From positions 2,341,492-2,405,491 of the forward strand of contig NZ_MQWB01000001.1 of the NCBI RefSeq assembly GCF_002257665.1: a stretch of 64,000 nucleotides of DNA, given 5' to 3'. The DNA is from Rubricoccus marinus. GTDB taxonomy: Bacteria; Bacteroidota; Rhodothermia; Rhodothermales; Rubricoccaceae. Shown one piece after another: positions 59,119 to 59,347 of this stretch; position 1 is the first letter of the stretch; each line of letters starts with the position of its first letter. A program made the translations under genes and the position numbers. The notes under the pieces are model-generated. The model had not been told where the DNA came from and searched no databases. It was given only the letters and a program-made list of their open reading frames with translations.

Positions 59119-59177
59119 CTCTCGGCTACCGGGCCGGGCGCAAAAAAACGCCCCTCCCAGCCTGTGGCCGAGAGGGG
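59119..59177 (-). terminator. Intrinsic terminator/attenuator in the metY leader
   Basis: On the minus strand CCCCTCTCGGCC (59177-59166), loop ACA, GGCTGGGAGGGG (59162-59151), then CG and seven T (59148-59142): a 12-bp stem including two G-T pairs. It lies between the leader-peptide stop (59204) and the metY GTG, so it can only end metY transcription early. The 5' arm can also pair upstream with GGCCCGGAGG (59236-59227) in the leader frame, and GCCGAGAG (59126-59119) repeats part of the stem downstream. Confidence 0.85.
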
Positions 59178-59203
59178 TGCAGAAACGCGAGGTCCTAGAG
59201 CGT

Positions 59204-59317
59204 CTAGGGTCGCGCGGTGCGTGCCGCCTCCGGGCCTGGCCGAGCCATGCCACACATCATCATCGCCATGCACATGGCGACGTGGGAGGTGCGGAGGACG
59301 GAGGCGGAGCGGGTCAC
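59204..59317 (-). CDS. Met/Cys-rich leader peptide of metY
   Basis: A short frame ending in TAG at 59204. From its ATG at 59275 the first ten residues are [10 protein letters not shown]: six Met and two Cys codons, then [13 protein letters not shown] (23 residues). An in-frame GTG at 59317 extends it to 37 residues ([14 protein letters not shown] first) and lies 22 nt from the promoter-like box at 59340, the usual spacing here, so the longer form is likelier. It is followed by a terminator and metY. The layout is that of a ribosome-stalling attenuator leader. It is not conserved-domain based; the call rests on composition and context. Confidence 0.75.
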
Positions 59318-59339
59318 GCGGGGGCGTTTGGATGCGGGC

Positions 59340-59347
59340 CCAACGTA
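59340..59347 (-). promoter_or_regulatory. Promoter -7-like box TACGTTGG upstream of the met leader
   Basis: TACGTTGG on the minus strand, 22 nt before the GTG of the leader frame, identical to the box at the DoxX gene. Confidence 0.5.

Follow-up and report, generated by a model that had tools for sequence, protein, structure and literature searches.

A putative methionine- and cysteine-sensing leader-peptide attenuator upstream of metY in Rubricoccus marinus and other bacteria

Introduction

Classical leader attenuators are known to govern the trp, his, leu, ilv, thr and also the phe genes, and methionine is usually described as being sensed via SAM or by repressors. In the trp, his, leu and thr attenuators of Proteobacteria, an ORF carrying codons of the product, its stop, and a mutually exclusive antiterminator and intrinsic terminator precede the biosynthetic operon. 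The metY leaders described here share this layout but use Met plus Cys codons, carry the 5' strand of the antiterminator (strand 2) after the codon run and inside the ORF, occur in different phyla and are often stacked with a SAM riboswitch. Leader peptides were known in Proteobacteria and Actinobacteria, to which Naville and Gautheret added Firmicutes (PMC2965389). In F. psychrophilum, strong clues for leader attenuation were reported before amino-acid operons, among which methionine is not named in the main text (PMC9723704).

The nearest published candidate is the metL leader peptide of S. lividans (ARCMCRRMCAF), which was proposed from RNA-seq and precedes metNIQ (PMC8079986). It is likewise a Met- and Cys-containing peptide before a methionine gene, but this actinobacterial element controls transport, is leaderless, lacks a typical Rho-independent terminator and, in the available part of that report, is given no comparative support. 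In a survey of Actinobacteria, no RNA element was detected ahead of methionine operons (PMC1262725). The mycobacterial polycysteine leaderless sORFs, in which Cys codons of a leader ORF sense Cys supply (PMC1262725; Canestrari 2020), are comparable in principle but involve Cys only, precede cysteine operons and lack conserved terminator hairpins. The SAM-I (S-box) and SAM-II riboswitches that precede metY elsewhere have the position and target gene in common with the leaders, and SAM-I also the transcription terminator, but they sense SAM directly without translation, and SAM-I is missing from the R. marinus genome. Furthermore, the SAM-I riboswitch of X. campestris also senses uncharged initiator tRNA; one met leader thus integrates SAM and Met-tRNA charging, but by direct RNA-tRNA binding and translational control, with no leader peptide mentioned in the available part of the text (PMC7270179). 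As far as the open-licence literature shows, a Met/Cys leader before metY seems to be undescribed; its new parts are the Met/Cys signal pair, the range of taxa and the interchange with SAM riboswitches. The original prediction for this locus had known of no described Bacteroidota example; leader attenuation in general had been suggested earlier for F. psychrophilum of this phylum, but not for methionine (PMC9723704).

Results and discussion

The Met/Cys leader of R. marinus

In the 64-kb stretch of R. marinus DNA analysed (the window), metY is preceded by a short start-to-stop ORF in which codons for the product of the pathway are over-represented (Table 1). Its Met/Cys run begins at 59275 on the minus strand and agrees exactly with the composition originally predicted for it. 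Six Met in ten open codons occur at this one site only in 64 kb on both strands, at least five Met per ten codons were found in none of 8.1 million first-order Markov windows, and the other sites of the window with at least five Met all belong to one ORF (61905-63290), where they lie in a transmembrane-like stretch. The Met density of the leader run is far beyond chance. Except for one sub-threshold Pfam match, the leader peptides matched no NCBIfam or Pfam family.

Table 1. Features of the metY leader and the downstream genes in R. marinus (positions in the window)
Feature	Position	Strand	Basis or remark
Promoter-like TACGTTGG, loose match to Bacteroidota -7 box TAnnTTTG	59340..59347	-	Read directly
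Leader peptide ORF, GTG start, 37 codons, TAG stop	59204..59317	-	Sequence
Strand 1, CCGCCTCC, potential partner of strand 2 and proposed protector without ribosome	59300..59307	-	MFE fold
Met/Cys codon run, 10 codons, 6 Met + 2 Cys; proposed stall site	59246..59275	-	Unique in window
Strand 2, GGCCCGGAGGCGG, antiterminator 5' strand, 9 nt past last Met codon	59224..59236	-	
Strand 3, CCCCTCTCGGCC, terminator 5' arm and partner of strand 2	59166..59177	-	
Strand 4, GGCTGGGAGGGG, terminator 3' arm, then seven T (59148-59142)	59142..59162	-	
metY, O-acetylhomoserine sulfhydrylase (homocysteine synthase)	57790..59103	-	TIGR01326, 645.5 bits (cut-off 495.1)
Second tRNA-Cys(GCA), between metY and metX	57679..57752	-	
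metX, homoserine O-acetyltransferase	56579..57634	-	NF001209, 352.1 bits (cut-off 331)
Homoserine dehydrogenase (hom), overlaps metX stop, start inferred	55482..56582	-	Homoserine dehydrogenase models, below curated cut-offs

The promoter-like box would place the transcription start approximately 20-25 nt ahead of the leader GTG, and a similar TACCTTGA or ACACCTTG can be read in relatives. The promoter of the original prediction is a weak candidate: a sigma-70 match was not obtained, and the resemblance of TACGTTGG to TAnnTTTG is loose.

An intrinsic terminator, CCCCTCTCGGCC-ACA-GGCTGGGAGGGG (59177-59151, minus strand; 12 pairs, 9 of them G-C), lies between the leader ORF and the first structural gene. 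Its stem starts 26 nt after the leader stop, and only about 38 nt without a clear promoter separate the T tract from metY, whose start codon is the GTG at 59103-59101 (minus strand). The TAG, the 26-nt spacing, the 12-bp hairpin and the seven T were all located where they had been predicted. A hairpin with a T tract is also a normal gene end, and since copper can be bound by Met/Cys-rich peptides, the frame could encode a functional metal-binding micropeptide followed by its own terminator, with metY transcribed from a promoter of its own; known families were matched neither way. We consider this very unlikely, as the short promoter-poor spacer, the position of the frame before metY and the scant similarity among peptides of different clades beyond their Met/Cys content all argue against it. 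Furthermore, one would not expect the terminator of a micropeptide gene to be complementary, in its 5' arm, to the coding sequence directly after the run. This complementarity, which had likewise been predicted, was confirmed in R. marinus: GGCCCGGAGG (59236-59227), which begins 9 nt past the final Met codon, pairs with the 5' arm at 9/10 positions including one G-U.

Folding with masked segments indicated how a ribosome may select between the two pairings. With no ribosome, strand 1 (CCGCCTCC) held strand 2 and the terminator formed, whereas with the first Met codons occupied by a ribosome and RNA available up to strand 3, strands 2 and 3 paired in a helix that encloses a small hairpin including the stop codon. 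With the ribosome at the stop, the terminator alone remained in the free downstream RNA. Once strand 4 has been transcribed, stability favours the terminator, and the switch towards antitermination must therefore be kinetic. In R. marinus, strand 2 lies approximately 20-32 nt upstream of the stop, and in this clade a terminating ribosome would not cover it fully.

The metY operon and its tRNA-Cys

The genes presumably cotranscribed behind the leader are metY, a tRNA-Cys, metX and hom. The extra tRNA-Cys occupies the same place in the operon at 5/6 leader-bearing loci of the family and its sister family. It is not the sole Cys tRNA of R. marinus, as a canonical copy resides in a Pro-Arg-Cys cluster; Rfam gave 44 tRNA matches in this genome. 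A tRNA-Cys(aca) called by ARAGORN at 40135-40222 (plus strand) is absent from these 44 matches and is likely false.

Conservation in the order and exchange with SAM-I

Nine genomes of the family Rubricoccaceae were compared, five of which contain this metY, and a sixth metY locus was taken from the sister family. According to the original prediction, loss of the Met codons or the hairpin in relatives retaining metY would refute attenuation. Both are kept in the five family genomes and the sister-family genome: all six loci retain the Met/Cys-rich frame, its stop and the terminator, and in each the strand past the run is complementary to the 5' arm of the terminator. The leaders of the five relatives read VTRSLSISIIRPASADAIRCMAMCMMMMPTGRTGVHAVPR, VTRSTYILTAPAAMCCMGMIMCCMADTGQERTRHGRR, VTRSSHIITAPAAMRCMGMMIMCCMAHTGQERSRHGRR, VTRSSHIIAPAAMRCMGMIMCMARSGQERSRLGRR and MSTFAPSNTFLRAAAMQCKGMCMPCRGMEGDA; GTG and TRS are retained in 5/6 leaders, and Cys is invariant in the family leader alignment. 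The leader is thus conserved ahead of its cognate biosynthetic gene. What the comparison establishes, at the level of sequence, is a leader frame of high Met/Cys content with its stop, a terminator behind it, complementarity between strands 2 and 3, and the linkage of these features to metY.

Used as a single-sequence query, the R. marinus leader peptide retrieved its own genome alone above noise, and a profile was therefore needed. Among 114 genomes of the order, the leader profile matched exactly those six (E 8e-20 to 4e-12); the next best E-value was 1e-3, and nine further genomes of the order gave weak matches (E 1e-3 to 0.05).

In other families of the order, a SAM-I riboswitch precedes metY at 14/14 loci scanned. 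SAM-I (RF00162) was absent from the window, the R. marinus genome and the other genomes of the family, with the exception of one member of the genus of R. marinus (genome G001, locus L035), in which SAM-I with its own terminator is followed by the Met/Cys leader with its terminator and then by metY. Most simply, this suggests a gain of the leader behind SAM-I and a later loss of SAM-I. SAM-I occupying this position in related families and in G001 might also suggest that SAM or an uncharged tRNA is sensed directly in R. marinus, by an RNA of the SAM riboswitch or T-box type, with the ORF being incidental. This appears extremely improbable: the sole Rfam match of the whole 64-kb window was a tRNA, the SAM and T-box models remained unmatched at gathering score, the genome has no SAM-I match, and the Met/Cys codon density is retained in frame.

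Met/Cys leaders in other classes and phyla

A total of 177 metY upstream regions, comprising metY loci of named genomes and three class- or phylum-wide samples, was surveyed for frames with at least five Met plus Cys in 12 codons that end near a terminator. This combination was found in 36 of the 177, compared with none on the reverse strand, none in shuffled sequences and at most eight when other residue sets were used; the regions include some duplicate or closely related loci, and the counts are therefore not independent. Besides the order of R. marinus, the same design precedes metY in Ignavibacteria (runs MAMCLSCMMMC and CKAMCNNMMQMCMMMCCAC), Calditrichota (MSMHMEMMM), Balneolaceae (MAMCCMPC), Acidimicrobiia (MMCMA..PC) and Gemmatimonadota (MCMCMC and MMCMTMRM), either by itself or in series with a SAM-I or SAM-II riboswitch. 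Leader and SAM-I are often in tandem in Ignavibacteria and Calditrichota, and two Gemmatimonadota loci (L246 and L248) combine the leader with SAM-II (RF00521), while the Acidimicrobiia sample contains the leader at 7 loci, SAM-I at 10 and both at none. Melioribacter has two Met/Cys leaders in tandem; such tandem attenuators precede metY at L096/L209 and L211, with no SAM-I at the locus. In Thermonema rossianum, SAM-I is followed by RMMQMCCCCM, for which a T-tract terminator is not clear. No Rfam family covered the leader at gathering score in the window or in the loci of the order and the survey.

T-tract terminators follow nearly all leaders, with mostly 18-32 nt from stop to stem. This argues against attenuation acting mainly at translation or via Rho with the hairpin being secondary, a reading that draws on mycobacterial cysteine genes, which have no conserved terminator hairpins at their leader ORFs (PMC1262725) and are described as translation-attenuated (Canestrari 2020 as cited in PMC13236596). 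We regard it as highly improbable for the metY leaders. Their antiterminator and terminator are predicted to exclude one another by sharing the terminator 5' arm. The 2:3 pairing exceeded dinucleotide shuffles (p < 0.05) in 24/29 curated leaders (Fisher 1.5e-25, related leaders not being fully independent); the R. marinus leader itself, GC-rich and with one mismatch, was marginal (p 0.08) and is among the five that fell short of the threshold. Since a MAFFT alignment of the six leaders of the order cut three terminators, pairs were evaluated by strand swapping instead: own combinations of strand 2 and 5' arm scored -500.6 compared with -424.8 +/- 13.1 for within-clade swaps (p = 5e-5), a sign of compensatory change in these sequences. 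Pairing of strands 1 and 2 was unsupported as a general feature by a long-region test over the 29 leaders (Fisher 0.31) and weakly supported when confined to the strand-2 core (6/29 with p < 0.05, Fisher 7e-5); in R. marinus it gave p 0.43, although the MFE fold places strand 1 on strand 2.

Proposed mechanism and implications

By every sequence test applied except that for the 1:2 protector, the R. marinus element appears to belong to the leader-peptide transcription attenuators. The attenuation proposed in the original prediction is supported by the retention of the leader at the six related loci and by similar leaders in other classes and phyla, and very probably the element is a ribosome-mediated transcription attenuator that reads the charging of Met-tRNA and/or Cys-tRNA and controls metY-(tRNA-Cys)-metX-hom. 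From this architecture we infer the transcription start, leader translation, stalling, the 1:2 step, the operon transcript and the dominant amino acid. A ribosome would translate the leader behind RNA polymerase and, when charged Met- or Cys-tRNA is scarce, would stall in the Met/Cys run, leaving strand 2 free to pair with strand 3 and allowing transcription to reach metY. With both tRNAs plentiful, the ribosome would reach the stop, 2:3 pairing would come too late, and the 3:4 terminator would form and end transcription near 59142. If no ribosome engages, strand 2 is predicted to be held on strand 1, and the terminator would again form. As Met is also needed to initiate translation, severe starvation could block initiation at the leader. 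Transcription-translation coupling in this phylum is, to our knowledge, not established.

The sensed residues are apparently Met and Cys together, in line with the invariant Cys of the family alignment. The same attenuator might instead respond effectively to Cys-tRNA, and thus to sulfur supply, rather than to Met-tRNA. Cys occurs in nearly all leaders and an extra tRNA-Cys gene is part of the operon, but most runs contain more Met than Cys, the runs of two leaders (L097 and L099) contain no Cys, and SAM riboswitches, which sense a product of Met, hold the same position elsewhere; a signal from Cys-tRNA in place of Met-tRNA is therefore possible but rather unlikely.

Extending the combined Met/Cys signal beyond R. 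marinus, we consider it probable, with less assurance than for the single locus, that metY is controlled in several phyla by a widespread and so far undescribed class of attenuators sensing Met/Cys-tRNA, which replaces SAM-I and SAM-II or is stacked with them as a NOR gate. A leader in series with a SAM riboswitch would require both low SAM and low Met/Cys-tRNA charging. In Rubricoccaceae, the attenuator would also govern the extra tRNA-Cys of the operon, closing a feedback loop. If this holds, methionine/cysteine biosynthesis would join the ribosome-sensed pathways in phyla in which such switches have barely been studied, and transcription-translation coupling would be implied there. In addition, metY within one order would represent a natural series of a regulator swap, from the SAM riboswitch alone via the tandem arrangement to the leader alone.

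A separate feature of the window is the 10-mer GCCTCTGGCG, which is present in 255 copies in 64 kb compared with 0.73 expected (e.g., at 59405-59418). It was counted at 3.4 per kb in other R. marinus loci and at zero in the same-genus and same-family loci compared, and is a species-specific HIP1- or uptake-signal-like iterated repeat.
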